Shown here: in pieces, positions 14,372-32,845 of the stretch
Position numbering within the stretch: position 1 is the stretch's first letter
How the letters are laid out: each line of letters starts with the position of its first letter
From: a virus
Length of the DNA stretch: 64,000 bases
IMG/VR virus record: IMGVR_UViG_3300009108_000002
Coordinates: 1-64,000 of that record
Reading direction: 5' to 3' (one strand)
The notes under the pieces: generated by a model
The model's input: the letters and a program-made list of their open reading frames with translations, nothing else
Databases searched by the model: none
What the model was told of the DNA's origin: nothing
Made by a program: the position numbers and the translations under genes

Positions 14372-15925
14372 ATGTCTACCGATTTAACAAAACTTTTAAC
14401 TCTTGAGACGGTATTAGAGCATCTGTTGAAAGCTACACCTGGGGAGAAACTTGAGTATCTTAGTCCTACTCAACGTCCTCCAGAAGATACACAGGTGCAT
14501 ACTACTCGTCGTGGTGCTCGTGGATATTATCCCTCTGAAGTTGGCACTACAGAAATAGATGACGCATTAGATAGACTTACTATACCGCCTGATACAGAAG
14601 AAGGTATTCGTGAAGAAGTCCGTCGCTTAGCTGAGTTGCCTGAAGAAGAACGAGAGATTGAAGTAGTTACTCCTGATAGTTCCTCTGATGATACGAGAGA
14701 TTCGGCTTGGGCAACTAGAGAGCAAGTTAATGCCCAATTTGAAAATATGTATGCGGATTTAAGGGACGCTATTGGGGAACATCAGCCATTCTTAGGAAGT
14801 TCTATTGATCCTGCGGATTTAACCTCTGAGAATTTAACTAAAGCGGGATTTACCGATGGTTCAGATGAAGGTTCAGCGACGGATTCAGGTCTGGGAATCA
14901 CTTCATATGCTAATTTTACTGTTGAAGTAGCAGGTAAAAAGTTTATATTTAAAGCTTCTCATGATAAAGGCGATAACAGGTCTGAGATGCTTGCATATAG
15001 TGTTGATAGAGCGTTGGGGTTGAATTTAGTTCCGTATGTACAACCGCATTCGATAGATCCTGAGCGGTTATTGAAAGTATTTACGGATACTCATCCTGAT
15101 CATGGGACATCTGTTGACGAATGGGGTGATCCAGGTGGGTTGGATAGAGCCGAAGTCGATAAGATAAAAGAGAATTCTTTAGGTTCTCAGGCTGCCGGAC
15201 ATTTTCAAGAGTTTTGTGAAAATTGTCTTTCTAGAGATGATTCTATTTCGGCTGTTGCTGAAATGTTAGCTAGTAAAGAGGGGCGAGAAGAATTTCTTAA
15301 ACTTATATTATTAGATGCTATTACAGGTAATCCTGATAGGCATACTGGTAATTATATGATTACAGCTGATCATAAGATTTTAGCTATTGATAATGGATTT
15401 GCGGGACGTATGGCTCATTCTTTCCCTCATGATCGAACAGCACATATCGAATTACATGAAATTTCTAGAGATGTTGGCTTAGATTTTCCTTATAGATATA
15501 GGGATCATTTGGATGAGCTTCTTACGGACGAAGAAAAGATACAAATTCGTACCGGATTAGAACAAGAAGCTCTAGATGTATTTGATAAATATTTTGATGA
15601 AGATACTCTCTCTGCTGCTTTAGGCGCAGTTAATTGGGAAGCAGATAATTTAGATATCGATAGGTTTAAAAATTTATATACAATCCAAGTTAATCGATTA
15701 ATGGGAGATGCTGTTAGCGGAAGAGCAGGCTATGGTTATGGTTCAACCCCATTCTCCCCTGATGGATTTGGGTGGGAAAGCTTCCCTGTTAGTTCCCAGC
15801 CTGGAGATAGGGATCGAAATAGGGATTGGAAAGGTGCAGATCCGGTAGATGATGGAGAAATGGGATGGGGTGGCGATACTCCTGCACATCTACAGGGTGG
15901 GCCAAGACAAGGAGTACGTCGTTAA
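14372..15925 (+). CDS. PI3/4-kinase-like (DRHxxN-type) kinase-fold protein 1
   Basis: 517 residues. The N terminus (1-56) has a short helix and a PPEDTQVHTTRRGARGYYP motif repeated in TopIB downstream. The kinase-like core has FIFKAS (K194, nucleotide-binding Lys), SEMLAYSVDRAL (E205), NPDRHTGN (catalytic loop D322, N327) and LAIDNG (metal Asp340). This order is that of PI3K/PI4K, HipA-like and actin-fragmin-type kinases. A GHFQEFCENC segment precedes the loop and recurs in the second kinase-like gene. The C terminus is Gly/Asp-rich and disordered. Substrate unknown. TAATG overlap with TopIB. Confidence 0.72.
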   Translation: MSTDLTKLLTLETVLEHLLKATPGEKLEYLSPTQRPPEDTQVHTTRRGARGYYPSEVGTTEIDDALDRLTIPPDTEEGIREEVRRLAELPEEEREIEVVTPDSSSDDTRDSAWATREQVNAQFENMYADLRDAIGEHQPFLGSSIDPADLTSENLTKAGFTDGSDEGSATDSGLGITSYANFTVEVAGKKFIFKASHDKGDNRSEMLAYSVDRALGLNLVPYVQPHSIDPERLLKVFTDTHPDHGTSVDEWGDPGGLDRAEVDKIKENSLGSQAAGHFQEFCENCLSRDDSISAVAEMLASKEGREEFLKLILLDAITGNPDRHTGNYMITADHKILAIDNGFAGRMAHSFPHDRTAHIELHEISRDVGLDFPYRYRDHLDELLTDEEKIQIRTGLEQEALDVFDKYFDEDTLSAALGAVNWEADNLDIDRFKNLYTIQVNRLMGDAVSGRAGYGYGSTPFSPDGFGWESFPVSSQPGDRDRNRDWKGADPVDDGEMGWGGDTPAHLQGGPRQGVRR

Positions 15926-17916
15926 TGCCTGCTGTTACTATATATAACCAAAAAGACTTAGCTTATATTGTCTTGCCTTCTCGTAAGATTCTATCTAAAG
16001 AGCCGGATGAAATCGCTCGTTCCATTTCCAAGGCAGAGAATCATATATCTTGGGTAGATAAAAGCCTACGAGAACGTCTACAAGCTAGTGGTGATGCTTT
16101 CTTTAAAGAGCATTCCAAGCAACTAGGAACAGACCTTAGCATGTCGGATGAAGAAGGCAAGATGTCTGATGGATTCTTTTTATATCAGACATATACTCGC
16201 TTTCAGAATCCCGTATTCCGTGCGTACTTTATTACGGATGAGCAAGTAGATAAATTAACTAATTCTGATATACAAAAGAGTGCGGATTTATCGAAGTTAT
16301 TAGTACTTGAGACTGCTTTAGAATATTTAGTTAAAGCAGAACGGGGAGAGCGATTAGAATACTTAGGCTCTGGTGAAAAACCTCCAGAGAATACACAAGT
16401 ACACACAACTCGTCGTGGAGCACGAGGATATTTTCCTTCTGAGATAGGCAAATTAGGTACACTAGAGCGTCCTTTAGAGCCAGAAGCTGCTCGACCTATT
16501 GAAGGTGTACAAGCTCCTGAAGACGTTGGAATGGTAAATGTTGATGAAAACGTAGATGACGATGAAGACGAGAATGAAGGGCAAGGCATTATTGGCGATA
16601 AGATTGATGCTGAATCTTTTATTGCAAAAATGAAAGAACAGGGCTTCCGTCCATTAGATGACTTAATTCAAACATTACCTAAAATTTCTGTAGACCAGAA
16701 AAAAGAATTAGTTAGACAGGCAGCCTTGGAAGGAAAAGGCCCACAAACAGATGCAACTCCTATTACTCCTAATATAGCGGTAGTTAATGAAGACGGTAAA
16801 GTGGTTAATATAACCACCGCTGACGGACAATTACAGGCCGTTCAGGAGTTTGACCCAGAGAATCCTGACCGTGGAGGCAAGCAGCACTTATTCTTTAGTA
16901 CCGATTCAGATGATAAGGTTCAAGTAGCTTGGATTGATGGTAAAGGACGACAACATGCTGGCTACAGTGTAGAGCATACTAAAGGTCAAGCTATTAAGAA
17001 ATTTGAGAAGATTAAAAAATTAGCTAAAAGTATCTCTCGTATTGAAAAGAGTTGTAAACAAGATATCCAGAATAACGGACGTAATAAAGAAGCAGCATTA
17101 GCTCTTGCTCTGATTCATAATACTTATCGTCGAGTCGGTAGTGGTGAATCTAAAGTTGTTTGGGACGGAGAAGAAGGACGACCTGGCCCTAAAAAAGATA
17201 AAGATGGCAAGTTTATACGAGAATATGTTTCTACTTTTGGAGTAACTAGCTTTCAGGCGCAGCATATAATAATTAAAGGTAAGAAAGTTTATCTTAATTT
17301 CTTAGGTAAATCCGGTAAATTAAATAATGTGGAAGTTACTGACCCATTAGTTAAGAATGAATTGATTGCTCGCCGTAAAGCAGCAGGTAAAGATAAGACA
17401 GCTACGGTGCTAAATGTTAGTCCTCCTGCGGTTAATGCTTATTTAAAGCAAGCAGCGGATGGTGATTTTAGTGTAAAGAACTTCCGTACTTATCATGCTA
17501 CTCGATTAGCAGCCGATTTAGTGTCGAAGACTAAGATACCTAAGTTAGATAGAAAGAAATTTGATGCTTTCATGAAGCGACGGGTTAATAACGGAGCTAT
17601 TACTAATGCCCAAGAGTGGAAAGAAGAAGCTTTTTTATGGGCATTAAAAGAACGTAATAAACTTAAATTAGATGTAATTGGTGAGCCTATTTCAGACCAA
17701 TTAAGTAATACTAAACAAGTTTGTGTAGCTCAATATATTGATCCTCAAGTTTTTAAAGATTGGGATATTTCATTTGATGGGGATGTAGATAAGCTATTAC
17801 GTTCTAGGTTCCCTGCAGCTGATGTTAAAGTTGCTCAGCAAAAGTTAAAGAATAAAGATAAGGCTCCGGTTAAAGCCAAAGGCAAGCGTAAACCTGTTAA
17901 GAGGAAGAAGAAATAG
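15925..17916 (+). CDS. Type IB DNA topoisomerase with N-terminal fusion domains
   Basis: 663 residues, starting at the ATG in the TAATG overlap. Residues 1-115 resemble the 97-residue protein at 30418. Residues 121-174 repeat the motif of the upstream kinase-like protein. The TopIB core (about 330-615) has HNTYRRVGSGE (Arg402/403), FLGKSGK (Lys462), KNFRTYHAT (Arg521) and VAQYIDP (nucleophile Tyr604), with Asn in place of the vaccinia His265, as in bacterial TopIB. The tail is highly basic (KGKRKPVKRKKK). It relaxes supercoils by a 3'-phosphotyrosine nick. Stand-alone bacterial TopIB is about 340 residues, so half the protein is extra. Confidence 0.85.
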   Translation: MPAVTIYNQKDLAYIVLPSRKILSKEPDEIARSISKAENHISWVDKSLRERLQASGDAFFKEHSKQLGTDLSMSDEEGKMSDGFFLYQTYTRFQNPVFRAYFITDEQVDKLTNSDIQKSADLSKLLVLETALEYLVKAERGERLEYLGSGEKPPENTQVHTTRRGARGYFPSEIGKLGTLERPLEPEAARPIEGVQAPEDVGMVNVDENVDDDEDENEGQGIIGDKIDAESFIAKMKEQGFRPLDDLIQTLPKISVDQKKELVRQAALEGKGPQTDATPITPNIAVVNEDGKVVNITTADGQLQAVQEFDPENPDRGGKQHLFFSTDSDDKVQVAWIDGKGRQHAGYSVEHTKGQAIKKFEKIKKLAKSISRIEKSCKQDIQNNGRNKEAALALALIHNTYRRVGSGESKVVWDGEEGRPGPKKDKDGKFIREYVSTFGVTSFQAQHIIIKGKKVYLNFLGKSGKLNNVEVTDPLVKNELIARRKAAGKDKTATVLNVSPPAVNAYLKQAADGDFSVKNFRTYHATRLAADLVSKTKIPKLDRKKFDAFMKRRVNNGAITNAQEWKEEAFLWALKERNKLKLDVIGEPISDQLSNTKQVCVAQYIDPQVFKDWDISFDGDVDKLLRSRFPAADVKVAQQKLKNKDKAPVKAKGKRKPVKRKKK

Positions 17917-18059
17917 TGGCTCCTACAAGCTGGAAGAAGTGTCAGAAGTGTGGACGTAAGCAGTCAAAGCGATATTTGCCTGCATTGTGTGGCCCATGTG
18001 ATGCCGATAAGCGTAGAAAAGAACGACGAGAAGCCCGAAAAGTATTGACTTCGGAATAG
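17916..18059 (+). CDS. 47-residue basic zinc-ribbon protein
   Basis: GTG start overlapping the TopIB stop (TAGTG). Cysteines CQKC and CGPC, 13 residues apart, are followed by a very basic tail (DKRRKERREARK). Small zinc-binding nucleic-acid protein. Its 3' end contains the -35 box of the promoter at 18045. Confidence 0.65.
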   Translation: MAPTSWKKCQKCGRKQSKRYLPALCGPCDADKRRKERREARKVLTSE

Positions 18060-18074
18060 TATTTAGGGTATAAT
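18045..18074 (+). promoter_or_regulatory. Strong sigma70-like promoter before thyX operon
   Basis: TTGACT, 18 bp, TATAAT (perfect -10). It is followed by AGGAGA 7 bp before the ATG at 18095. Confidence 0.75.
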
Positions 18075-18094
18075 GCAGGGTAATAGGAGAACGT

Positions 18095-18298
18095 ATGACT
18101 CAGGACAATAAAGCTTTACAAGACCTATTTGATACAGTTCATTATTCAGAAGAATTAGTAGATACCAGTGCAGATGAAGATGAGACTGATCCTGATGACG
18201 ATGAAGACTATGTTCCTGAGCTTACGCCTGAGCAACAATTAGGTATGATGACTGATGAAGAGTTTGAGGCATTTTTAGATAGGCGACGTAGTACTTAA
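18095..18298 (+). CDS. Small acidic hypothetical protein
   Basis: 67 residues, extremely Asp/Glu-rich (DEDETDPDDDEDY), so predicted disordered or a DNA mimic. Not recognised. First gene behind the 18045 promoter with a good Shine-Dalgarno; TAATG coupled to thyX. Confidence 0.7.
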   Translation: MTQDNKALQDLFDTVHYSEELVDTSADEDETDPDDDEDYVPELTPEQQLGMMTDEEFEAFLDRRRST

Positions 18299-19077
18299 TG
18301 ATTGTAGAACCTAAGGTTTTTCTAATCGGCGAATCAACTGTGAATAAGGAAGGACTTAGTGCCTTCCTTAATCATTTGGGCGTACCAGAGTGGACTTCTA
18401 ACGCTCCTACTGATATAGAACTTTTAACTGAGGTATACGGTAGGGCATGCTATAAGTCATTTGGTACTGATTTAAACCCTAATCTCACTCGTGTTCGTAA
18501 TTCAAATGAAGCTTATATTTCTAATGTTATAGCAAAAGGGGATGGGTCTGTTTTAGAACATGGAGTAGTTAATTTCTTTTTCTGCGATGTTAGTCGTGTT
18601 TTTACGCATGAATTAGTACGTCATCGTGTAGGAACGGCTATGTCGCAAGAATCCCTACGTTTTGTACGGTTAACTGATTTAGATTGGTATGCTCCTGTGT
18701 GCATTCAAGAAAATGAGAATGCAATGCATATCTTTACTAAGACTATGGAAGGTCTTTCTAACCTTCAGAAAGATTTAGCAGAGATATATGAATTAGACGA
18801 TACTAATCAATTTGATATTAAAAAGGAAATTACTTCTGCTATGCGTCGTATAGCACCTATTGGTTTAGCCACTAATATAGGGTGGTCGTGTAATATGCGT
18901 ACTTTACGACATGTTATTGAAATGCGTACTAAACCTTGGGCAGAAGAAGAAATTCGTGTTGTTTTCTCTAAAGTGGCAGAAACAGCAATAGAACGGTGGC
19001 CTAATTTATTTGCGGATTATGAAGTAGAAATAATAGATGGTCTTCCTTCCTACAGTACATTAAATAGTAAGGTCTAA
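18298..19077 (+). CDS. thyX: Flavin-dependent thymidylate synthase
   Basis: 259 residues. Converts dUMP to dTMP using FAD and methylenetetrahydrofolate. It has the ThyX signature RHRVGTAMSQES (R98-H99-R100), preceded by SVLEHGVVNFFF, and the C-terminal NMRTLRHVIEMRTKPWAEEEIR helix region that binds substrate. Together with the RNR it secures dNTP supply. Confidence 0.93.
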   Translation: MIVEPKVFLIGESTVNKEGLSAFLNHLGVPEWTSNAPTDIELLTEVYGRACYKSFGTDLNPNLTRVRNSNEAYISNVIAKGDGSVLEHGVVNFFFCDVSRVFTHELVRHRVGTAMSQESLRFVRLTDLDWYAPVCIQENENAMHIFTKTMEGLSNLQKDLAEIYELDDTNQFDIKKEITSAMRRIAPIGLATNIGWSCNMRTLRHVIEMRTKPWAEEEIRVVFSKVAETAIERWPNLFADYEVEIIDGLPSYSTLNSKV

Positions 19078-19132
19078 ATAATATATTATTATGTTATAGT
19101 ATTAAGCATCCTGTGCGGGTTGGAGGGGATTT

Positions 19133-19438
19133 GTGCCACGTACTATTAAAGAAGTTGAATTAACTACAATAGATGTTGAAAACATCTTATGTCATATACT
19201 TGAAACTATAACAGTGTATGAATACCCTACACCGTCTGTTTTTTCAGCCTTAACTAGACTTAGTATAGTTTCATTTTTACGAGGTAAAGGTATTCAAAAA
19301 GATATAGAACTTATAGCTATTGATGTTTTTAGACAATTAAGTGAATTTTCTACAAGTAATTCTAAATATGAGTGGTTTGTAGGATGGTCACGAAAATTAG
19401 TAGATACTATTAAAGAGAAAAAGGTGGAACAAGAGTGA
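19133..19438 (+). CDS. Hypothetical protein
   Basis: 101 residues, unrecognised, mostly helical. GTG start is supported by GGAGGGG 6 bp upstream. GTGA overlap with the next gene. The 55-bp gap upstream is AT-rich with no clear -35. Confidence 0.6.
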   Translation: MPRTIKEVELTTIDVENILCHILETITVYEYPTPSVFSALTRLSIVSFLRGKGIQKDIELIAIDVFRQLSEFSTSNSKYEWFVGWSRKLVDTIKEKKVEQE

Positions 19439-19863
19439 CGGTTTATTGCAATATTACTGAGTGCAAAAATTGGCTTCCTTTAAAGGAAGTTCATCATATG
19501 GAAAATAAACCTGGATTTAAGCCAATTGGTAAAACTGATGAATATACAGGGCAATGTGCGTTTAAATCCATTAAAATAGAGGCTACTACTGCTCGTAGTC
19601 CACATACTAAACAAGTTTTAGCAGTATGTGGTAGTTATAATGCTGAAGAGACTAAAGAATTTCAGTGCTTAGAAGAACGTTGTAAGTACTTTATAGACCC
19701 TACAACATGCGATAAAGTTAAACATAATGAGAATTTATATATAGATTGGACAGTAGCATTTGATGAACTGGAACGAAAGGAGGTTCCTAGATGTAAAACT
19801 TTTGCACATCGTTGGCGTGAGAATGCTATAGATTGGGCAAAAGTAGCACAAGCTCAAAGATAA
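19435..19863 (+). CDS. Cys-rich hypothetical protein
   Basis: 142 residues with nine Cys scattered as CNITEC, GQC, VCG, QCLEERC, TTC and RC, which suggests a multi-zinc or disulfide fold. It ends with a Trp-rich helix. Function unknown. GTGA overlap with the previous gene. Confidence 0.6.
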   Translation: MTVYCNITECKNWLPLKEVHHMENKPGFKPIGKTDEYTGQCAFKSIKIEATTARSPHTKQVLAVCGSYNAEETKEFQCLEERCKYFIDPTTCDKVKHNENLYIDWTVAFDELERKEVPRCKTFAHRWRENAIDWAKVAQAQR

Positions 19864-19913
19864 TTTTTAAAATTACCTAAATATTTAATAATTTGATATA
19901 ATATGGAGATAAG

Positions 19914-20255
19914 ATGCCGAAATATCCTGAATATGGTGATGACGATTTTTCGTTAATGGTAGACCCGTTCACAGGACGTGTTGCTTTAGTTTGTCCTGCA
20001 CCTATCATTGCATTTGATGATATTGGAGAATTCAATGAGTGGGTAAATGGTCTATTAGACGCAATACCCCAAATTAATCGTTCTTTGCATGCTAATGATA
20101 GTCAACCGCCCATTACTAAAGAATATGCTTCGACGGTGATAGATACATGGCAGGAACAAATAATGGAAAGTCTAAAGGAAACTCCCAAGAAGACTGGACG
20201 GAAAAACTCCGTGAAGAAGCAAAAAAGCTCTATGAACGAGGATCCGAACTCTTAG
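19914..20255 (+). CDS. Hypothetical protein upstream of terminase
   Basis: 113 residues, unrecognised. An acidic N terminus, a central DIGEFNEWVNGLLDAI helix and a basic tail (KKTGRKNSVKKQKSS). Its last 109 bp overlap the small terminase in another frame. GGAG Shine-Dalgarno 7 bp before the ATG. Confidence 0.6.
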   Translation: MPKYPEYGDDDFSLMVDPFTGRVALVCPAPIIAFDDIGEFNEWVNGLLDAIPQINRSLHANDSQPPITKEYASTVIDTWQEQIMESLKETPKKTGRKNSVKKQKSSMNEDPNS

Positions 20256-20722
20256 AGATTAGTGAGCAACTTGGCGTACCGCTTGAGTTGCTCACTACTT
20301 GGCAATTCACGGAGCAGTGGGATGTACTGCCGGAAACGTTGATAATAGGCGAAGATGCCTTCCCTACAGCCCTTCAGGCTATAGAAAAGAAAGAAGACTC
20401 TATTTATGATATTACACCTGCTGATCTTAATCAGGAGGCCACGGATAGATTATTAGAGGGATATAAATTAGTTACCAATGTTGCTCAAGATGCTCTTTTA
20501 AATGACAACATTAAATTTAAAGATAAAAAACAAGCAACTGATGCATACCTAGAAAGTCTAAAAGGACAAGTAGCACTGTTAGGTGCGGATTTATCTCAAG
20601 AATTTTTATTAGATGTTGCGAAGATAATACGTGAAGAAGTTACAGACCAAGAAACCCTCCAAAGGCTCGGAGTCAAACTCACAGCCCTTGGTAGACTTTA
20701 CAATACTAGGCTCTCTGCTTAA
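20147..20722 (+). CDS. terS: Terminase small subunit
   Basis: 191 residues. YERGSELLEISEQLGVPLEL then TTWQFTEQWD is the helix-turn-helix plus Trp segment typical of phage small terminases that recognise the packaging site. The remainder is helical, fitting oligomerisation. Directly upstream of, and overlapping, the large terminase. The long overlap with 19914-20255 and a weak GGTGAT Shine-Dalgarno make the exact start uncertain. Confidence 0.72.
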   Translation: MAGTNNGKSKGNSQEDWTEKLREEAKKLYERGSELLEISEQLGVPLELLTTWQFTEQWDVLPETLIIGEDAFPTALQAIEKKEDSIYDITPADLNQEATDRLLEGYKLVTNVAQDALLNDNIKFKDKKQATDAYLESLKGQVALLGADLSQEFLLDVAKIIREEVTDQETLQRLGVKLTALGRLYNTRLSA

Positions 20723-22598
20723 CGATCCTAGTCTTGTAGCTACTGAGGATACTGTTAGCGAGTCCGAAGATGATATTTGGAGTTTTACTCCAGTTGATTT
20801 AGAAACTTTTCTCTATGGCGAAGAGTATTTGAATCTAACTATGAGACTGTCTCAGCCTCAGATTGATTTTGTTTATAACACATCTAATATATTTGACCCG
20901 CCTTTCTTTACTGAAAGTGTGTTAATGGCAGGTCAAGGCTCTGGTAAGGATACGTGTTCTATATTAATTGGTTTACGTATAGTGTATTTACTTCACTGTC
21001 TTAAGAATCCTCAAGTATATTTTGGGATGGACAGTAACAGCTTTATTGATTCGATAAATGTGGCCCAGAATGCGGATATCGCCCGTAACATTTACTTCAG
21101 CACTTTGTCTAATATTTTACGTAGTGCTCCTTTATTTACTGACGATACTTTACCTCAGTATATTTCCTCTCGTATTACTCAGCAGACTGTTACATTTCCT
21201 AAGAATATACGCCTTATTTCGGGTAACTCTGAAAATGAGTCTTGGCAGGGTTATACCCCTATCTTGATTATTCTTGATGAGATTGATGCATTTAAGAGTG
21301 AACAAGAGCTACAACGTAGTCATTCTTTGCGTAGTGAGGGAGCCGAAGGTGTGTATAACACCGCTAAGGCTTTGATTCAGTCTCGTTTCCCAGGTGTTGG
21401 TAAGGTTATCTGTTTATCTTGGCCTCGTTTTAAGGGATCATTTATTCAACGACGGTTTACCAATGGTAAGACAGAGAATCGTACCTTTGTTTCTTGTAAA
21501 GAAGGAGGTACGCCTTTTGCCACTTGGGAGTTTAATCCTTCTAAGAAGAAAGAAGACTTTATTGATTTTTATGAAACGGATCCTGTTCTAGCTCGTGCTC
21601 GTTATGAATGTGACCCTCCATTTGCACGGGATGCATATATAAAAGATTCATTGCCTATTCTACGTGCATTTGACGCAGATATAGATGAAGTAGGTCAAAT
21701 AACTTGGGCTAGATTGAAAGAAATTAGAGAAGAAGCTGGTCTACAGGCGGGAATTAAATACTTTATTCACGTTGACTTAGGATTAAGACATGCTAATGCT
21801 GCTGTCTGTATCGCTCATCAGGGCGAAGAACATGTAATAATTGATTTAATAAAGATTTGGGAACCTGATCCTGAATATGATGTAGATTTTTCCTCTATTG
21901 AAAATTTCATCTTAGGCTTACGTGATAAAGGATACCGAATTGTTAGCGTAACGTATGATAACTATCAGTCCGTTAGTTCGTTACAGACGTTAGCTAAATT
22001 TGGTATTCCTGCTAAATATAAATCTATAGGTAGAAGTAGTCGTGAAGCTTACGATACTTTTAAGGATTTAATTTATCAAGAAAAATTAGATGGATATTTT
22101 GATAAAGAGACTATAGAAGAGATTCTTGGCTTAGATGTTGTTTATGGAGATAAAATCGAAGCTAGGCCAGGAATGAAGAAAGATCGAGCAGATGCGGTAG
22201 TAGGAGCGGTTCATGGTGTATTAAAAGAACATAGTACTCTTACTAGTATGCGAAGTATGGGTGGAGTTAATGGATTTTTTGAAAATCCTAATAATAATCA
22301 AACATCTCAAAATGAAAAAGCAAGAAATCCTTTAAAAACTCCCACTAATGCAGGGTGGGGACGCGATGCTGTCCAAGAACGCATAGTTAGTAGCAGTTCT
22401 GATATATGTGTTGTATGTAACCGTGTCGGTGGTATAGAATATACTGACGAATTACAAAATAGAGTCTTTGATAATGAGGAAGCATATTGGCGAATGTGTT
22501 TGGTTTGTGCTTCTAAATGGGAAAAACAAGGTTCAGATTGGGTAATTTCTCGTGCACCCGATGAATACTCACTAAAAGAAATAATAGGAACGATTTAA
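20631..22598 (+). CDS. terL: Terminase large subunit (packaging ATPase/nuclease)
   Basis: 655 residues. The ATPase has MAGQGSGKD (Walker A, 100-107) and LIILDEIDAF (Walker B, about 212-221). The RNase H-like nuclease has FIHVDLGLRH, VTYDNYQS and KKDRADAVVGAVHG. An unusual C-terminal extension carries a Cys pair set, CVVC then CLVC about 31 residues later, a probable zinc ribbon. The GTG at 20631 overlaps terS by 92 bp; a TTG near 20690 is an alternative start. Confidence 0.9.
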   Translation: MKKLQTKKPSKGSESNSQPLVDFTILGSLLNDPSLVATEDTVSESEDDIWSFTPVDLETFLYGEEYLNLTMRLSQPQIDFVYNTSNIFDPPFFTESVLMAGQGSGKDTCSILIGLRIVYLLHCLKNPQVYFGMDSNSFIDSINVAQNADIARNIYFSTLSNILRSAPLFTDDTLPQYISSRITQQTVTFPKNIRLISGNSENESWQGYTPILIILDEIDAFKSEQELQRSHSLRSEGAEGVYNTAKALIQSRFPGVGKVICLSWPRFKGSFIQRRFTNGKTENRTFVSCKEGGTPFATWEFNPSKKKEDFIDFYETDPVLARARYECDPPFARDAYIKDSLPILRAFDADIDEVGQITWARLKEIREEAGLQAGIKYFIHVDLGLRHANAAVCIAHQGEEHVIIDLIKIWEPDPEYDVDFSSIENFILGLRDKGYRIVSVTYDNYQSVSSLQTLAKFGIPAKYKSIGRSSREAYDTFKDLIYQEKLDGYFDKETIEEILGLDVVYGDKIEARPGMKKDRADAVVGAVHGVLKEHSTLTSMRSMGGVNGFFENPNNNQTSQNEKARNPLKTPTNAGWGRDAVQERIVSSSSDICVVCNRVGGIEYTDELQNRVFDNEEAYWRMCLVCASKWEKQGSDWVISRAPDEYSLKEIIGTI

Positions 22599-24475
22599 TG
22601 GGTTTAGTTGATTCATTAGCTGGTGTGTTCGGAGAGCCAGGTAGTCCTGGGGCTGCCTCATTGGCTAGTCGTAATTTAGCAGCTGGCGAAATTCCTAGTA
22701 ATTTAGACCAATATCAACGAGTTAATGGACTAATAGGTACATTAGATTCGTTGGTTAAGGCTGCGGAAACGGCTCAAGGTGCTAATGGTGCCACGGGACG
22801 TATGTCTCCTTTGGGTCTTGATGCAATTATTCAAGACTGGGTTCGCCAACAATTTATTTATCGACGTAGCATATTACAAGATCTTTACGTATTAGCCTAT
22901 CAAGTTACTGAGATACGCTCAGTTGTATTAGCAATATTGCGTGAAGTTTTCCGTAAAGGCTTTTCTAACTGGCAACAAAAATATGTTCGTAAATGTGTTC
23001 AATGTGGTAAAGAATTTGAAGAAGATGAAGATGAACATTGTGATTCTTGTTTTGCTTTTGAAATAGTACAACAAGAAGTCTATGACAAAGAATACGATGA
23101 AATCATCACTAAAAATGTACGTAGATATAAAAGAGATTCACAAACTGGGGATAAAGTTCCTGTAGGGACTAGTATTCCCGATTTTACCCAACAAAAATCA
23201 TTTGATGTATTAATCGGTAATGCCAATAGTTTCCATCAGTCGCTCTTAGATGTCTTAAATGAGTTTATGACAGACATTTTAATTGCGGATGATGGCTTCT
23301 TACTATTTAACAAAGAATATGAAATAGACCCAGTAACTGGGAAAATTAGTAAATCAAAGATTTTTGAAGTCACCCGATTACATCCGGCTTTAACTGAATA
23401 TGATATAGATAGGAAAGACGGTCTACCAGAACGTTCTCATTTCTTATGTCCTATTCATAGAGAGCAACAGACTCACACATCTCCTGGCAAGTGCGATGTA
23501 GTAGCGGCAGAAGGGTTCCGTTGTAACGCTACCTTACTGCCAGCTATGTTTAGGTATTATTGGCGTGGACGTTATCGTTACTATCTAGCTGATGAAATCT
23601 GTCACGCCTCTTTCTTTAATCCATCTAAAACTTATGGATATTCTCCCGTTCTTACAGTCTTTGAGAAAGTTCTGTCCCTTGTAGGGGCAGACAGGACGCT
23701 CTATAGATACTGGTATGAACGGAGAATTCCACCGGGGTTATTAATTACTTATACCGATGATCCTGAATCCTTAGAAACGGAAATCGAGCGTATTAAGACT
23801 CAAATGCTTAATGACCCGAATACGTTCCCGTGGGTTGCAGCATCGGCTAGAAATAATCGAGGTAAAACTGACTTCGTTAAGTTAGCATATACCTTCCAAG
23901 AACTGGACTATCTACCTGTTAGGCAGGAGATTCGTGACCGTGTAGCTATGCTATGGGGCGTGACTCCTCTGTTCTCAGGAGATGCATCTAGTGTTGGCGG
24001 TCTGACTAGAGAGTCTGCTCAGACTGATATGCATAATAAATTAATTGAATCGTATCAAAATGTAATTAACGAAAACGTTATTCCATTCATGCTTAAACAA
24101 TTAGAGATTTCTGATTGGACTATTCATCTACAGCCTCCGCAGGAGGAGACTGAAGAAATTCAGTTGTCTATTGAAAAACTGCGACTTGAGAATGCTAGTA
24201 TGATGCTCCAGTTAGGATATGAGCCTATTAAAGAAAAAGGTAAAGATATTCGATTTAAATTTAAAAAGATGGAGCAAGCTCCAGGTATGCCTGGAATGCC
24301 TGGGGCTGAAGGCGCACCTGGTGCTCCTGGTGCTCCCGCTATGATGCCTGGAATGGAGGAACAACCTGCGGAAGGACAGCCTGCTGGTGTAGACCAATTA
24401 CCTGCACCTCCGCCAATAGCTGGGCCAGAGATGTCTGAAGCAGGAATTCCTCTCTCAGAAGATGATGAAGAATGA
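22598..24475 (+). CDS. Portal protein with zinc-knuckle insertion and collagen-like tail
   Basis: 625 residues. Order after TerL, the YRRSILQDLYVLAYQVTEIR helix, SFFNPSKTYGYSPVLTVFEK and GVTPLFSGDASSVGG are typical of portals (dodecameric DNA gate). Odd features are a KCVQCGKEF...HCDSC zinc knuckle near residue 130, a second Cys group (LCPIH, KCD, RCN) near 290, and about eight Gly-Pro-X triplets (PGMPGMPGAEGAPGAPGAP) before a Pro/Glu tail. TAATG coupling to TerL. Confidence 0.85.
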   Translation: MGLVDSLAGVFGEPGSPGAASLASRNLAAGEIPSNLDQYQRVNGLIGTLDSLVKAAETAQGANGATGRMSPLGLDAIIQDWVRQQFIYRRSILQDLYVLAYQVTEIRSVVLAILREVFRKGFSNWQQKYVRKCVQCGKEFEEDEDEHCDSCFAFEIVQQEVYDKEYDEIITKNVRRYKRDSQTGDKVPVGTSIPDFTQQKSFDVLIGNANSFHQSLLDVLNEFMTDILIADDGFLLFNKEYEIDPVTGKISKSKIFEVTRLHPALTEYDIDRKDGLPERSHFLCPIHREQQTHTSPGKCDVVAAEGFRCNATLLPAMFRYYWRGRYRYYLADEICHASFFNPSKTYGYSPVLTVFEKVLSLVGADRTLYRYWYERRIPPGLLITYTDDPESLETEIERIKTQMLNDPNTFPWVAASARNNRGKTDFVKLAYTFQELDYLPVRQEIRDRVAMLWGVTPLFSGDASSVGGLTRESAQTDMHNKLIESYQNVINENVIPFMLKQLEISDWTIHLQPPQEETEEIQLSIEKLRLENASMMLQLGYEPIKEKGKDIRFKFKKMEQAPGMPGMPGAEGAPGAPGAPAMMPGMEEQPAEGQPAGVDQLPAPPPIAGPEMSEAGIPLSEDDEE

Positions 24476-27400
24476 CGACTGAAGAGCGAATTTTACATAA
24501 ATTAGATTTGCTTACTAAAGAGCAGGAAGAGCTTTTAGTTTTTTCTGCTCTTAATGACGTTATTGATCGTTTTGAGAATATTATTAATATTCCGTATTCT
24601 GAAGCTGGCATTCCATTAATAACTGATAATTATTTAGATAAAGCTGCTAGACGTAAGAAAGACGATCTTGAATTAAGTTCTGAGGGTGAGGCACTCGTTA
24701 ATGCTGACCCTAATAGTCTTACTCCTGCAGAACAAGAACGGGCTGTTTATGCTAGAGGCGTAAGAGATGTTTATAATAATTTAAAGAAAGAACATGTCAA
24801 AGTAGGAGAGAATCTAGATTTCTTACAACCTATTTATAATGACATGATGAAAGGATTGGGCTTTGACCAACCTGCTCCTGAGGGAGGAGGACGTAGACAA
24901 CGTACTCAAGGCGCACCTCCTAAGCCTGTAAAACAATTAATGAGTGCCTTTGCTCAGCAAGCTGATGCGGTTGCTTCGGCAGTGGCGGAAGGTAAGTCTA
25001 CTAGTGAAATAGTAGGACAAGCGTTTCCTCGTAATGGTTTGCGTATGAACGTCGGTAAAGATGCAGGCGTTGATATTCAAGTCCGTATTAAGATGAATCC
25101 TGATGGTAAATCTTTCAAGATAGAGCAACGTGAAGGTGGTAAAGGTAAATTCAAGACTGTTAAAGGTGGAGAACGAGTCAAGAATTTTGGTGCTGCTGTC
25201 CGAAATGGTGAGAAATTAATCGTCGATAAAGCAATGGGCCGTGATGCTCAGCTTGCAGGAGTTGATGTTACCCCTAAGAATCGACGTAAATGGCTTAATG
25301 AGAATGTAAAGCAGGACTTCAGAGGGCCAATGACCCGTATGGAGCCTACTACAAAGGATAAAGAAAAATTTGCAGCTGAATATGAAAAGAATAGTTTATC
25401 TAATTTAGAAGAAAATGGTATTGATGAAAACTTTATTGAAGAATCATTGAGACATAATGCCAGTGATTTATTTGATGTATCAGATGCAAATGAGGCAGAC
25501 GATCTTCCTAGCGTAATTGCTAATTCTCCGTGGGGTATGGCTAAGTCTATTTTTACTAGTGTACTTGGCGGAAAAGTTAGAAGTATCGATGATGTAAAAC
25601 GAGTTGTGAAAGAAAGTAGTGTGCGGGTTGCTAATCATCCCACACATGGAGCCGATAGTTCTAATAATGAGAAGCCTGGAAGTTCTTTTTGGAGAGGTAA
25701 CGCCGAAGCTAAAAGTGGTTTAGGTGGAATGTTTTCCGAATGGGGTAAGGCATGGTCATCAGGTTGGAACGAGGGTTGGGAAAAAGGGCAATATTTTGGA
25801 GCACATACACTAGGTGGAGTTAAATATCGTGCTCCTAATAGTGAATTATATAGACAAGATCCTCGTGGGTATTGGAATGAACGTGGAAAATTAGTCACTA
25901 TGATGGCTCGTGCTGACGCTAAATACGATGATGCTATATCTAAGGCTATGAATATGCCTGAAGTAGCTGTTGATGACAAAGGGAATGTCATCACACGGGA
26001 TTATCGTACTGGAGTGGATGACGATGGGAATGACATAATAGCTAAAGTTCCTGTTAATCCTCGTAGTGATGCTCTTGAAAAAGCAATGGTTGATTTTGCT
26101 AAGGCAGAGGATTCTATTGAAGCCATTGCACGTGATAAAACTGGAGTATCATTAGACGCTGTTAGAGCACATCTTGATGAGATAGTTAAAGGAAATAAAG
26201 ATGCCATGCCTCCTGGGGAAGGCTTTCCAGATCGGTATGGTGGTCATATTTTACGGCGTAAATTAAATAAAAATATTGAAAAATATGTTCCTGAGAAAGT
26301 TCAAGGGGCTGGAGGACTTCTTACAGGCATAGGTGAACGGATGATGGGAGAGCGAGGACGCTCTAAGGATGCATCTGGTGAAGGGGCTGGACAATCTCAG
26401 GGAGAACAAGGTGAAGCCAGACTGCATGCTCAAGATCGACCTGAATTATCTGCTCCGACACAAGAACCTATATTGGATTCACAAGGTAATCCTGCTATAG
26501 GACCAGATGGGCAGCCGATGATGCGTACCGTGCAGAGAGAAACTGGCGAAAAAAGTCAGTCAGCTGTTTCTACTAGTGATCGTGAATATTTACAGCCTGG
26601 AGATCAGCCTCCTAAAGGCGTTCAGGAGTATACAGCAGAGCGTAGAGGTAAAGACGGAAAACGAGCTAGATATTATTCTAGAAAAGAAGCTGCTGCTGTT
26701 CGTGACCAGCAAGAAAATGGCCCTACTAAGGACGATACAACTAAGCCAGAGCCGGAACCTACGACAAAACCAGAGCCAGATGACCCACCACCGCCTCCGC
26801 CACCTCCGGTAAGAGAGCCTACACCGGAAGAAAAAGAGCGATTAAGAGGGCAACGTGCTGCAGTGCAGCAACGGATGCAGGAAGCTGGTGGAGACAAAGC
26901 TTATCTGGAGCAAGAACCGCAACGGGAACAACCTGCACGTATAGATAAAGCTGGAGAAAATGAAATGGCCTCTCCTCAAAAAGACCAATATCAGAAAGCA
27001 ATGGAAAATGAAGTAGCGAGTGCTAAGCGTGTGCAACAGCATTCTAAGGCTCGCTCTGCTAAAGCTCAAGCTCGTGTAGCTAAAGCTAAAGCTGATGAAG
27101 CTGAAGTAAAAGCTAGAAGAGCAGAGGACGATAGAGAAGTCCATATAGCTGAGATATTACATAAATTAGATAGTAATATTTCTGAGATAGCTATTACGTC
27201 TAATTCCGAAGTATCTGATGTTTTTAAACATTTAGACAATACTATTGAGAAATTAGAAAAGGGCATTTTCGGAGGAAAGAAACCTGATGTTAGAGTCGGT
27301 ACTCCTCCGGCCCCCAGTGTAATTGAGTCTGGAGAGCCAGAAAGAAAGCCTAAAGAAGGCGTAGATTACGATCGTCATGTACAGCCTAGGAGCACTCAGA

Positions 27401-27600
27401 AGGCTGATGACGTTGAAAAGTCAGGCGGTAATCCTTTTGCTTCTTTGGCTGGACATATGGGTAGAGCTTTTAGAGAAGCTGCAAAACCTCGTAAAAAAGA
27501 GTCTACACAGGCTCCACAATCTACTCCTAAGCCTCCAGAATCTGCCACTCCTTCCAGTGGAGAATATGGAAGCCCAGATGCTTTTAAGACCGATGCCTAG
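24472..27600 (+). CDS. Giant low-complexity structural/cargo protein
   Basis: 1042 residues; family not recognised. Begins ERILHKLDLLTKEQEE and repeats ILHKLD near residue 900. The middle has WGKAWSSGWNEGWEKGQYFG. Around 704-740 there is EYLQPGDQPPKGVQ plus a basic RRG/RARYY segment matching the motif in the kinase-like protein and TopIB. A Pro stretch (PPPPPPPP near 780) and a long Ala/Lys/Glu coiled coil (about 850-900) follow. The head-gene position suggests a head or ejected internal protein. ATGA overlap with portal. No capsid-protease motif seen. Confidence 0.6.
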   Translation: MTTEERILHKLDLLTKEQEELLVFSALNDVIDRFENIINIPYSEAGIPLITDNYLDKAARRKKDDLELSSEGEALVNADPNSLTPAEQERAVYARGVRDVYNNLKKEHVKVGENLDFLQPIYNDMMKGLGFDQPAPEGGGRRQRTQGAPPKPVKQLMSAFAQQADAVASAVAEGKSTSEIVGQAFPRNGLRMNVGKDAGVDIQVRIKMNPDGKSFKIEQREGGKGKFKTVKGGERVKNFGAAVRNGEKLIVDKAMGRDAQLAGVDVTPKNRRKWLNENVKQDFRGPMTRMEPTTKDKEKFAAEYEKNSLSNLEENGIDENFIEESLRHNASDLFDVSDANEADDLPSVIANSPWGMAKSIFTSVLGGKVRSIDDVKRVVKESSVRVANHPTHGADSSNNEKPGSSFWRGNAEAKSGLGGMFSEWGKAWSSGWNEGWEKGQYFGAHTLGGVKYRAPNSELYRQDPRGYWNERGKLVTMMARADAKYDDAISKAMNMPEVAVDDKGNVITRDYRTGVDDDGNDIIAKVPVNPRSDALEKAMVDFAKAEDSIEAIARDKTGVSLDAVRAHLDEIVKGNKDAMPPGEGFPDRYGGHILRRKLNKNIEKYVPEKVQGAGGLLTGIGERMMGERGRSKDASGEGAGQSQGEQGEARLHAQDRPELSAPTQEPILDSQGNPAIGPDGQPMMRTVQRETGEKSQSAVSTSDREYLQPGDQPPKGVQEYTAERRGKDGKRARYYSRKEAAAVRDQQENGPTKDDTTKPEPEPTTKPEPDDPPPPPPPPVREPTPEEKERLRGQRAAVQQRMQEAGGDKAYLEQEPQREQPARIDKAGENEMASPQKDQYQKAMENEVASAKRVQQHSKARSAKAQARVAKAKADEAEVKARRAEDDREVHIAEILHKLDSNISEIAITSNSEVSDVFKHLDNTIEKLEKGIFGGKKPDVRVGTPPAPSVIESGEPERKPKEGVDYDRHVQPRSTQKADDVEKSGGNPFASLAGHMGRAFREAAKPRKKESTQAPQSTPKPPESATPSSGEYGSPDAFKTDA

Positions 27601-27614
27601 AATATGGAGTCACT

Positions 27615-30353
27615 ATGACTAGTCCGATAGATTTAACTAATAAAATTGATGATTTTGCAGTTGAAGTCTCTATTAATGAGTTAACTTCTCTTACGAAAGG
27701 ACTACTGCAATTAGCGCATGCTAGATATCCTCATCTAGTTCCTATGTATAGGACTATTCATCGTAAAGTTCCTCGTCCTATGGTTACCAGAGCCATTCGT
27801 TGGGTAAATCCTAAACGCATGTTCCCTGGTGCGGGCCTTACTAAAGAAGAAATGCAGAATATGTCCAAACAGGAACTTTCTGACTTGATAGTCAAATTAA
27901 ATGAATATCGGGCAGAAGCTCATGTTATTCACAATCGCTACAATCAGATGATTGACATGATTAATATGGGAGAACTTCCGTATTTTATTCCTTATGCAGG
28001 GTTCAAACAGGATAAATGGAACATGCTTCAGGAATATATGGACCGTGCAGAGCGTCTAAAAGATGGCACGGAAGAGTGGGAACATGTTCTTGACCGTCAA
28101 GCTATAGAAATCCGTAATATTCTTAATGAACAACATGATACTAAGCTTGATGATATTGACGGCTTATGGGAAGACGCTAAAGGTAATCCGGCTGCTCCTA
28201 ACTTTATGGACTTAAAGAAGGGAGAGAAGGCAAAGAAATTCCTACGTAGTTCTCGTATTACACCAGATGGTAAACGAGTTCGTCTAAAACAGAACATATA
28301 TGCTCGTCGTTTTATAGCTGTTCCTAAAGCAGAAGTACGTAAGGGAGAAATAGTACGTATGCCTGCGGGAGGCAATATTCGTCGTCCAGGCCGTGAGAAT
28401 CGCCGTGATAGGGCATTATTTGATAAGCACGGAGGAGCAGTAGCTCATTTAGTTAGAATCCCTAAAGTCCCGTGGATTGTTGGTTCTATGGAACAAGAAC
28501 TACGAGAAAAGGGACAAATGATCAGTTTGCCTCCAGGTCGTAAAGACCCCATGATTATTACTTTTGGGGAAATAAGTGATGAGGATGTAGCTAACCGCCG
28601 ATTAGCTCGATGGACACACACTGACCCATTGGGTATGCGTGGTAGAAGACCTCATATTGGTGCAGCTTCTCGTGGTGCCGAAGGCAGTTTGGCACAAGAA
28701 GGCCCAGAACCTCACCAAGAAGGCGCACCTGTACGACGAGAGCCTGCTCGTAGAGATCCAAGACAAGTACGGCGTGTTGAAGACCTATTCCGAAGAAGAC
28801 AACGGAGAGGAGGAAGAGGTCAACCGGACGAAGGGCCGTCAGAAGCAGAACAAGCAGCAGCTAGGAAGATAAATCAGGAATTTGCAGACGCAGCTGTTAG
28901 TTTGTTCGAAAAACATGGTGTTTCTGATGAAGTAAAAGCTAATCACGAAAGATTAAAAGCTGTTAATGATAGTGATATCGCCGAAGCACGATTGCTAGGT
29001 GGCGGTATCAACGCCCAAGAAGGTGTAGTAATAGCTTTAAAACTTAATGACGGTTCTGAAGTAGTATATAAAATCGTAAAGAATGAGCAAAAGGCTGAAT
29101 TAGTTTCTGAAGCTATTGATAAGATATTTAATTTAAATATTAACTCTGATACTGCAATTAACCGTAATATATCCGCTGATGCTATTGCTGAAAAATTAGG
29201 TTTAAGTCCTAATGATGCCCAAACTACAGCTTTACGTAATGCAATCGCTAGTGGTGGAGGACATCTCCAAGAGTTCTGTAAACCTAATTGTGTAAATATG
29301 GGAAACCACAATAATAAGTCAGGCTTGTATGCCAATGAAGGTTTCCGTAATGATATGCATAAAATGATGATTAATGACTGGTTAACAGGAAACTGGGACA
29401 GACATTCAGGTAACTGGATGGTAGATAGTAACGGAAGAGGTATCCAGATTGACAGCGGATTCGGCTCAGATTTTGCACATTATGGAGATCCTACCAGGTC
29501 AGCTAGTAATCGTGGGCAGTTAATGGCTACCACAGGGGGTGGAGCAACTTCTCGTAATCAACATAGTGGTAGAAAACCTGGAGATTTGTCCAGAGAAGAC
29601 CTTAAAGCTGAGCTTGAAGCTGTTTTTGAAGACCACTTCTCTGTTGATAAATTCCAAAGTCTAAAAGCAGAATTTGGAATGGGACAGGCTAATAATCTTA
29701 GTACTATTGAAGAATTTAAACAAGATTTTCTTGATAAAGCAGGTAGGGTTTGGGGTCTAAGTTTCGGACAAGCTAGTCCTCCAGAACAAGAACAATCTGC
29801 TCAAGAAGAGATTAATTGGAATCAAACCAATCAAGAACCTTCAATGCCAGAGGAAGACTTAGCATCTGCTCCAGAGTCTTCTGATGGATCTGAGTGGTCT
29901 TCACAAGCTCTACGTGATGAAGAAGATAGAGAGTTAGCAAGACAACTACGAGAGCGAGAAGGAGCACAACAAGATGAAGGCAATAGGCCGAATATAGAGG
30001 AAGACGCACTTAATGTTAATGACCCCGATGCAGAAAGAGGATTAGGTGGACAATCAGCACCTAGACAACAGACACCTACTCCAGAACCTGAGCCAGAACC
30101 GGAGCCTGTAGGCGCAGCCAGTGCTGCTCAGCCTAGTAGAGGACAGTCAGTACCTCGTGCGGAGAGAGCTTCTGCTGGATCGCCTTCAGATGATGCAGAG
30201 TTAGATGATGTTGATGAAGATGTAGAACCTTCCTCTGATGACTTACGTAGACGGTCTAGCTCTAGACCTAGTGGACAGTCAGCATATGATTTTGATGATG
30301 ACGATGAAGACTCCGATATGGGCATAGATTTTAATGATCCCCGTATACGGTAG
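27615..30353 (+). CDS. PI3/4-kinase-like kinase-fold protein 2
   Basis: 912 residues. Residues 1-340 are unrecognised and basic; a RAIRWVNPK motif at 59-67 recurs in the CCA enzyme. A very Arg-rich linker spans about 350-405. The kinase-like core has SEVVYKIVKN (K486), KAELVSEAI (E495), GHLQEFC (550-556), TGNWDRHSGN (catalytic Asp595, Asn600) and IQIDSGFG (Asp613). The last 200 residues are Pro/Glu/Ser-rich and disordered. Paralogue of the protein at 14372 by motif order and the GH(F/L)QEFC block. Likely virion or injected protein; substrate unknown. Confidence 0.68.
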   Translation: MTSPIDLTNKIDDFAVEVSINELTSLTKGLLQLAHARYPHLVPMYRTIHRKVPRPMVTRAIRWVNPKRMFPGAGLTKEEMQNMSKQELSDLIVKLNEYRAEAHVIHNRYNQMIDMINMGELPYFIPYAGFKQDKWNMLQEYMDRAERLKDGTEEWEHVLDRQAIEIRNILNEQHDTKLDDIDGLWEDAKGNPAAPNFMDLKKGEKAKKFLRSSRITPDGKRVRLKQNIYARRFIAVPKAEVRKGEIVRMPAGGNIRRPGRENRRDRALFDKHGGAVAHLVRIPKVPWIVGSMEQELREKGQMISLPPGRKDPMIITFGEISDEDVANRRLARWTHTDPLGMRGRRPHIGAASRGAEGSLAQEGPEPHQEGAPVRREPARRDPRQVRRVEDLFRRRQRRGGRGQPDEGPSEAEQAAARKINQEFADAAVSLFEKHGVSDEVKANHERLKAVNDSDIAEARLLGGGINAQEGVVIALKLNDGSEVVYKIVKNEQKAELVSEAIDKIFNLNINSDTAINRNISADAIAEKLGLSPNDAQTTALRNAIASGGGHLQEFCKPNCVNMGNHNNKSGLYANEGFRNDMHKMMINDWLTGNWDRHSGNWMVDSNGRGIQIDSGFGSDFAHYGDPTRSASNRGQLMATTGGGATSRNQHSGRKPGDLSREDLKAELEAVFEDHFSVDKFQSLKAEFGMGQANNLSTIEEFKQDFLDKAGRVWGLSFGQASPPEQEQSAQEEINWNQTNQEPSMPEEDLASAPESSDGSEWSSQALRDEEDRELARQLREREGAQQDEGNRPNIEEDALNVNDPDAERGLGGQSAPRQQTPTPEPEPEPEPVGAASAAQPSRGQSVPRAERASAGSPSDDAELDDVDEDVEPSSDDLRRRSSSRPSGQSAYDFDDDDEDSDMGIDFNDPRIR

Positions 30354-31309: not shown

Positions 31310-32845
31310 ATGGATTCAGTTGACCGCACATTATTAAAGTTGGACTACTTCCTCGCTAAACACGAGGAAGTAGGTCCATCTTATGATCGTCCTGAGGCAG
31401 CCGATGACCCACGAGCCGAAAAACATCGATTAGAAGAACAAGCTCCTGGTGAAAAAGGTTCACCTGAAACCCCTAAAGGCAAAGTCAGAACGAAAATATA
31501 TGAGCTTGTTCATCGTGGTGGACGTACTTTTGAACGAGCTAGGACTGCTTGGGTAAATCCTAAGGTAGCAGAACATTTAGAGCAGCGGAAAAAGGCTGCT
31601 GATTGGATTAGAACTTTAGGTAATTATCTTCCTATTTATTTTGTTGGAGGATATGTCAGAGATAAGTTCTTTAAAAAAGTATCTAAGGATTTAGATTTAG
31701 TTGCAACTGTTGATTTAGAACAAGCGAAAAATATCCTAAAGCAATTAAATATAGAGTTTAAAGAAAAAAATAACTCTCACGCACGATTGTCTTTCATGAT
31801 AGGAGGAATTCGTGTTGATTTAATCTCTACTACTGGTGAGGAATTATTAGAAAACCTCCGTAGTAGAGATTTTACTATTAATGCTATTGCTCAATCGGTA
31901 ACTGGACAGTTTTATGATCCTACTCGTGGTTTAGAAGATGTAAAAAAGAAATGGTTACGTTCTCCTAATAGTGATAGTGTAACGGCATTTGAATCTGACC
32001 CTGCACGTATTTTACGAGGAGCTAGATTTTTAGCTGATTATCCCCTAAAACCGCATCCTACTTTCCTTTCAGGTGTTAAAAAGACGGCTGAAAAAGTAGG
32101 AACTCTTAAAAAACGTCGTATTGGTTACGAAGTAGTTAAGATAATTCAGACAGAAAAGCCGTGGATATCCCTAAAATTCTTAGCTGATTATGATATATTA
32201 AAGTATATTTGTACTGATTTAGAAAAAATGGTAGGATTTAAGCAACGTGGCCCAACGCATATGAAAGATGTATGGGGACATACGCTTGCTGCCTTAAAAC
32301 ATGCTCAGTCAGATGATTTAGTGCTAAATCTAGCTATTTTATTCCATGATATAGGAAAGCCTCATACTGCTACGGATGACCAGAAATCATTCCCTGGACA
32401 CGATAAAAAGGGCGCAGAGATAACTAAAAAGGCTCTTACTGATTTAGGAATACCTATTTCAGTAGTAAAGCGTGTAACTAATATAGTTGAAAATCATCTC
32501 TTCGTTAGTAAAGTTGGAACTAAAGGACAGCCTGAAGAATATAGGAAATTAGCTTTAACTTTAGGTGGCGATATCGATAGGTTCTTTAAACTTGTGGAAG
32601 CGGATGCAGCTGCTCATAAACAAGGTAAGGATTGGGATCCAGATCTAGTAAAAAAGGTTAAAGCGTTAGTTAAAAAATCAGAAGCTGCTCCTATAGTAGC
32701 TGATACTAAAGCTGATGAAGAATTAGAAAAGTCTCTTGATTTAGAACGTGTGTTAGTAGAAGATTCTTTAAATATTTTACTTGGACATGATATTGGTTTG
32801 AATGATGTGGATTACATGTTAAATTTGGTGGACGTGAATGGGTAG
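31310..32845 (+). CDS. cca: CCA-adding tRNA nucleotidyltransferase with HD domain
   Basis: 511 residues. Class II nucleotidyltransferase signatures in order: YFVGGYVRD (about 110-118), KDLDLVAT (metal Asp127/129), LRSRDFTINAIAQ, FYDPTRGLEDV and SDPARILRGARF. A C-terminal HD domain has LAILFHDIGKPH. An extra N-terminal 85 residues (LLKLDYFLAKHEE, ERARTAWVNPK) are absent from cellular enzymes and resemble other late proteins here. Repairs or completes tRNA 3' CCA ends. Last 8 bp overlap the next gene. Confidence 0.88.
   Translation: MDSVDRTLLKLDYFLAKHEEVGPSYDRPEAADDPRAEKHRLEEQAPGEKGSPETPKGKVRTKIYELVHRGGRTFERARTAWVNPKVAEHLEQRKKAADWIRTLGNYLPIYFVGGYVRDKFFKKVSKDLDLVATVDLEQAKNILKQLNIEFKEKNNSHARLSFMIGGIRVDLISTTGEELLENLRSRDFTINAIAQSVTGQFYDPTRGLEDVKKKWLRSPNSDSVTAFESDPARILRGARFLADYPLKPHPTFLSGVKKTAEKVGTLKKRRIGYEVVKIIQTEKPWISLKFLADYDILKYICTDLEKMVGFKQRGPTHMKDVWGHTLAALKHAQSDDLVLNLAILFHDIGKPHTATDDQKSFPGHDKKGAEITKKALTDLGIPISVVKRVTNIVENHLFVSKVGTKGQPEEYRKLALTLGGDIDRFFKLVEADAAAHKQGKDWDPDLVKKVKALVKKSEAAPIVADTKADEELEKSLDLERVLVEDSLNILLGHDIGLNDVDYMLNLVDVNG

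Follow-up and report, generated by a model that had tools for sequence, protein, structure and literature searches.

Known phage effectors that are delivered together with the DNA include the polyvalent and MuF-linked proteins (PMC5512222, PMC3482391). The polyvalent proteins of phages and conjugative elements are predicted to be packaged and injected; the kinases among them are related to Hanks kinases but have lost the C-terminal subdomain and carry an insert between His and Asp (PMC5512222). In T4 and giant phages, capsid-targeting parts are known that are cleaved after Glu by the prohead protease (PMC5694885). Here we describe two kinases, K1 and K2, of an uncultured tailed virus of microbes that is known here from sequence (IMG/VR record IMGVR_UViG_3300009108_000002). 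They are encoded in the window analyzed, which comprises the first 64 kb (positions 1 to 64,000) of the 141,341-bp record, the ends of which overlap. Both belong to the PI3/4-kinase superfamily, and K1 shares a tag of about 55 residues with the topoisomerase IB encoded next to it. We consider it somewhat more likely than not that K1 and K2 represent a phage family of PI4K-type-II/FAM20-like kinases acting as virion-delivered effectors.

Both open reading frames (ORFs) were found where an earlier sequence-only reading had placed them, and the motifs it had quoted are present in both. The two proteins and their parts are located as follows.

14372-15925, plus strand: K1, 517 amino acids (aa), composed of tag, acidic linker, PI4K-like kinase and tail (ORF, motifs, Pfam, BLASTP)
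14879-15721, plus strand: kinase core of K1 with K194, E205, D322, N327 and D340 (alignment, Foldseek)
27615-30353, plus strand: K2, 912 aa, composed of a conserved N-terminal region, an Arg-rich stretch, a PI4K-like kinase and an acidic tail
27615-28688, plus strand: N-terminal region of K2 (aa 1-358), YPHLVPMYRTIHR...RWVNPKRMFPG (conserved in relatives, low pLDDT)
28857-29774, plus strand: kinase core of K2 with K486, E495, D595, N600 and D613 (Pfam PI3_PI4_kinase, 2.8e-7)
29775-30350, plus strand: acidic, Pro/Ser-rich C-terminal tail of K2 (sequence)

K1 presents, in this order, FIFK (K194), E205, GHFQEFC, NPDRHTGN (D322) and IDNG (D340), and the corresponding series in K2 is VVYK (K486), E495, GHLQEFC, NWDRHSGN (D595) and IDSG (D613). 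Their proposed paralogy is borne out by BLASTP (24% identity over 207 aa, E=2e-15). In 10-row kinase alignments that draw on IMG/VR and on a small number of genomes, the beta3 Lys, the alphaC Glu, the DRHxxN loop and the second Asp (IDxG) are all present, and the columns that are invariant among the ten relatives coincide exactly with the catalytic set (G, K, E, D, N-DRH-N and I-D-G). The sole departure seen was IDNA in place of IDxG in a K2 relative, L062. Pseudokinases of the FAM20A type occur in the neighboring family, FAM20A is among the profile matches, and both proteins have long arms, as might be expected of kinase folds that have lost catalysis and serve a structural role. However, the relatives read, distant ones included, all retain K, E, D, N and the second D, and a dead fold is hardly credible.

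The kinase-core tree groups K1 with K2 (clade support 0.975) and separates them from the other phage and bacterial relatives. The two also have in common a GHxQEFC..NC block at the expected hinge, which is missing from the outside relatives. K1 and K2 are therefore paralogs or exchanged modules of one family. Given this clade, and a protein in L062 in which a K1-like kinase is attached to an N-terminal region of the K2 type, the kinase is regarded as an exchangeable module. The two kinases occur together in three records, namely the window's own, IMGVR 3300025267_000026 and 3300009414_001611. As single queries against INPHARED phages, PHROGs and PDB sequences K1 and K2 gave no usable match; only profiles reached relatives. 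The N-terminal region of K2 (aa 1-358) matches no known family, and one K2 relative (P0010) lacks the acidic C-terminal tail.

Kinases of this kind were also found in other arrangements. The K1 kinase of L005 (5200-9161) is encoded by two ORFs that meet at TAATG and lacks about 25 residues at the junction; the split may be real or may stem from an assembly error. Phage proteins with three tandem PI3/4K-like kinase domains are encoded in L020 (7808-11587), where an N-terminal Nudix domain precedes them, and in L022 (6902-10579). A 1771-aa phage protein in L023 (8162-13474) combines a PI3/4K-like kinase with DUF7178 and a zeta-toxin kinase domain.

The sequence-only reading had assigned both proteins to the PI3K/PI4K and HipA-like branch and not to the Hanks-type kinases. 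Pfam PI3_PI4_kinase (PF00454) is the best family for both, with 31.1 bits for K2 against a cut-off of 27.1; K1 reaches 19.4 bits, which is under the cut-off, yet it is homologous to K2 at 2e-15. The Pfam scan of K1 and K2 lists no protein-kinase family at E<=1. The HipA-like part of the assignment did not hold, as HipA_C scores 13.3 bits on K1 against a cut-off of 30.5 and is not listed for K2. No hipB antitoxin gene was found adjoining either kinase gene. HipA and Hanks kinases were thus ruled out as identity on these features, and a polyvalent-type kinase was ruled out because K1 and K2 have a contiguous DRHxxN and helices past the catalytic core. TIGR03843 (SCO1664 family) matches far under its cut-off.

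A family profile (A5) of ten relatives, two rows of which are bacterial relatives outside the K1/K2 group, matched PI4K type II-alpha (5.6e-10) in PDB, also PI4K type II-beta, and next FAM20 kinases including FAM20A. With a profile of the K1/K2 group only, the top matches were at about 0.01, to PI4KII (PI4KII-beta, 0.012) and the HipA-like CtkA. Because the PI4KII match is weak without the two outside relatives, only membership in the superfamily is claimed. With PI4K type II-alpha and -beta as the closest solved sequences, K1 and K2 could be lipid kinases acting on host or viral inositol lipids. However, the PI4KII match is weak outside the catalytic core, FAM20 kinases match as well, and the Pfam scan of K1 and K2 found no lipid-binding domain. 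Moreover, the PI3/4-kinase superfamily includes many protein kinases (PIKK, FAM20C), and to our knowledge most bacteria lack phosphatidylinositol. A role as lipid kinases is thus quite improbable.

Foldseek comparison of the K1 and K2 models, the check proposed in the earlier reading, returned PI3K, PI4K and VPS34 with a probability near 1 and E about 1e-4, though with TM-scores of only 0.15-0.3. The models have confident cores and poor overall packing, and the disordered or Arg-rich arms described earlier agree, as do the acidic ones, with pLDDT values <50. Structural matches of K1 in BFVD include phage proteins named portal and ART.

The main clue to function is the tag that K1 shares with topoisomerase IB and other enzymes, which the sequence-only reading had passed over.

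14378-14545, plus strand: tag of K1 (aa 3-58), helix DLTKLLTLETVLEHLLKA followed by PGEKLEYL..RPPEDTQVHTTRRGARGYYPSEV (likeness to the next gene, hidden Markov model (HMM) matches in relatives)
14642-14677, plus strand: EEEREIEVVTPD, the EREIxVVQAP motif of K1, a candidate processing or docking site
15925-17916, plus strand: DNA topoisomerase IB with internal tag (Pfam Topoisom_I, 2.1e-19)
16285-16455, plus strand: tag within topoisomerase IB (sequence comparison, HMM)
16486-16521, plus strand: AARPIEGVQAPE, the post-tag motif as in topoisomerase IB (sequence)

The tag consists of a short helix and a Gly/Arg/Tyr-rich motif, and residues 2-58 of K1 are 70% identical over 57 aa to the internal stretch of topoisomerase IB. 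Downstream of most of the 33 distinct tags, beyond a variable acidic linker, stands EEREI(x)xVQAP or a closely similar motif; a pattern search of the virus's own ORFs for the motif retrieved the K1 copy only. The tag HMM gave a weak match (independent E-value 0.085) to a degenerate tag in a 1042-aa protein encoded next to K2, the L062 relative of which scores 0.00019. Within K1 the tag has no Pfam match at E<=1, its best PHROG match (0.0015) is to an unnamed family, and a tblastn search of INPHARED with the consensus tag gave no match.

According to the tag HMM, the tag directly precedes the kinase in all full K1 homologs read and is present in every topoisomerase IB homolog read. In sister viruses it occurs up to three times inside proteins of 1,100-2,100 aa encoded in the K1-type locus, where it lies between modules; three tags are found in a 2,100-aa ORF (L013/L048) and in a 1,934-aa ORF with the kinase at its end (L042). 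The modules that follow the tags are kinase, ART-like, GNAT, zincin and DUF192. Pfam supports DUF192 (1.7e-17) and GNAT (0.0004, just over the cut-off), the zincin match is weak, and the ART-like modules were recognized by an Arg / Ser-x-Ser / Glu-x-Glu pattern, which is a reading of sequence motifs and not a Pfam call. The recurrence of the tag on other enzymes in relatives suggests that the virus packs them in the particle to reprogram the host at entry. The tags of K1 and topoisomerase IB are more alike within a genome (63%) than across genomes (49%; 5,040 permutations, p=0.0008). Either a common receptor or gene conversion would explain this likeness; since a shared receptor would produce it, it was counted in favor of cargo loading. 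Similar GxRGGRYY tags also occur in an unrelated 106-kb virus (L027, 8027-14170), where they precede an ORF that is zincin-like and another for a kinase, the latter also with HLPGxHDQxxHG motifs.

The sequence of events that we propose starts from K1 as part of an exchangeable cargo locus, with an N-terminal tag that would be read by a head component during assembly. The tagged enzymes, i.e. the kinase and topoisomerase IB and, in relatives, the ART-like, GNAT, zincin and DUF192 modules, would thereby be taken into the prohead. Placed between tag and enzyme, the EREIxVVQAP motif would likely serve as a release site for the head protease, or else as a docking site. The enzymes would then be injected with the DNA, and the kinase would phosphorylate host targets, most likely proteins, in favor of early infection. 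K2 would be expressed from the portal operon, and its own N-terminal region probably associates it with the virion. A wider role of tag and EREIxVVQAP motif as a general cargo-loading and release signal for unrelated injected enzymes, in use in a tailed-virus lineage and with related signals in haloarchaeal viruses, is a tentative proposal to which we give somewhat less than even weight.

Haloarchaeal viruses provide links to the virion. The gene for HVTV-1 gp115 lies in the head region, three genes past the portal gene, and its product has a similar tag at the start and zeta-toxin and ART domains. HSTV-2 gp16, encoded between head-completion and tail genes, has a conserved N-terminal part and a C-terminal module that is a PF00454-type kinase (25.5 bits, sub-threshold). 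HSTV-3 gp16 matches it in the N-terminal part only, and a HEFGH zincin motif replaces the kinase. In addition, a MuF-kinase fusion was found in a Verrucomicrobia metagenome-assembled genome (L038).

The main rival is that the kinases are made and act within the infected cell, where they would take over the host, counter its defenses or exclude other viruses; the tag would then serve in docking or recombination and would not be a packaging signal. K1 indeed lies between the ribonucleotide reductase gene and the topoisomerase IB and ThyX genes, far from the capsid genes, and PADLOC gave weak similarity to the candidate defense kinases PDC-M03A (K1, 1e-6; a relative in L004, 1e-7). The tag-like motif on HVTV-1 gp115, the placement of HSTV-2 gp16 and the MuF fusion point instead to the virion, which makes action within the cell rather unlikely. 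The K1 stop codon overlaps the start codon of topoisomerase IB (TAATG, 15923-15927), and the two genes are translationally coupled. The late and head-gene setting that had been described for both kinases does not apply to K1, but it does apply to K2, which belongs to the terminase-portal operon.

20631-22598, plus strand: terminase large subunit (PHROG, 5.3e-13)
22598-24475, plus strand: portal protein (PHROG, 7.3e-43)
24472-27600, plus strand: 1042-aa protein with no assigned function and the degenerate tag EYLQPGDQPPKGVQEYTAERRG at about 26578-26646 (sequence)

K2 is co-oriented with these three genes, and its immediate neighbors are the 1042-aa protein and a 97-aa ORF. The order terminase, portal, 1042-aa protein, K2 is retained in L006 and L062. 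This conserved setting would fit a function of K2, and perhaps of K1 too, in modifying phage structural proteins during head assembly and not host targets. In other virus groups, however, the kinase slot is swappable with a zincin, as cargo would be, and we think a structural-protein target improbable. The terminase large subunit is closest to those of Streptomyces phages (about 30% identity), and the portal to those of haloarchaeal viruses (HVTV-1/HCTV, about 25% identity). The terminase large subunit in L006 (1972-5085) appears to hold an intein (CFDGDTLIISEEGTKPIRDV ... VHNC), which the window copy lacks.

Several points weigh against virion delivery of K1 and K2 as PI4K-like effectors. K2 lacks the tag, K1 adjoins nucleotide-metabolism genes outside the capsid operon, and K1 by itself is under the Pfam cut-off. 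The Foldseek TM-scores are low, probably because the underlying alignments are shallow. Gene conversion would likewise make the tags within a genome alike, and a recombination seam or another kind of assembly domain are alternative readings of the tag. Finally, packaging and cleavage of the tagged proteins are steps that we infer.

Elsewhere in the window, a tRNA nucleotidyltransferase (CCA enzyme) with a long N-terminal extension is encoded at 31310-32845. A second tag (HR..WVNPK) common to K2 and this enzyme was rejected (E=1.2, not significant). Outside the window, at 92-141 kb of the record, are the capsid and tail genes, and the record encodes an SU10-like capsid protein. Also beyond the window, a 970-aa ORF (95983-98895) has a Cys-rich segment at about residues 150-190 and an S78-like head maturation protease at the C-terminus; the assignment of this S78-type prohead protease is weakly supported.

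The recurring, exchangeable tag turns an "unknown kinase" into a testable claim on how phage heads take up effectors. Were it to work in this way, the tag would offer a signal that can be transplanted to pack enzymes into phage heads, and its sequence would help to find further injected effectors. If it is a cargo signal, the PI4K-like kinases would have a predicted delivery route, and topoisomerase IB would be an injected payload.

Injected polyvalent and MuF-linked effectors were already known, and the present findings extend this theme of phage cargo. What is new is the pairing of the kinases, a tag followed by a conserved motif, and the presence of this tag in topoisomerase IB. That phage kinases of the PI3K/PI4K branch are little described, as the earlier reading stated, is right, though haloarchaeal Mincapvirus genomes annotate a "phosphatidylinositol kinase". 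The literature search found no paper on packaged PI3K/PI4K-like phage kinases; PI4K/FAM20-like kinases are annotated in a few tailed-virus genomes, and no discussion of their role was found in the papers searched. In the text of PMC8651126, which covers these haloarchaeal viruses, the term "phosphatidylinositol" was not found.

Among described systems, the "phosphatidylinositol kinase" of the mincapviruses (HSTV-2 gp16; HRTV-11, HRTV-2 and HCTV-6) is a PF00454-type kinase like K1 and K2, and HSTV-2-type gp16 is the top BFVD match of K1 from a cultured virus. These viruses differ in that a single such kinase and no tag of the K1 kind were seen. The gp115-type zeta toxin/ART protein of HVTV-1 and HCTV-5 shares a similar tag (YVDSPDEAPEGVQVQQGDRGGLWYPSE) before its effector domains, but zeta toxin and ART replace the kinase and the host is haloarchaeal. 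PI4K type II, FAM20 and the SCO1664 family (TIGR03843) appear to share the catalytic core from the beta3 Lys to IDNG, whereas the phage kinases have the GHxQEFC..NC block and other flanks. Polyvalent proteins (PMC5512222) are likewise large and modular, with ART, kinase, GNAT and peptidase domains, but their kinases lack the contiguous DRHxxN and the helices past the catalytic core of K1 and K2. MuF (Phage_Mu_F/SPP1 gp7) fusions join a head protein to effector domains, in one case (L038) a kinase, whereas the Pfam scan found no Phage_Mu_F domain in K1 and K2. T4 Alt and T4/phiKZ-type head proteins likewise have an N-terminal part, which serves in targeting and is cleaved. The tag described here, a candidate for comparable targeting and cleavage, differs in its length of about 55 aa, in a sequence that is unrelated as far as seen, and in its repetition within one protein.

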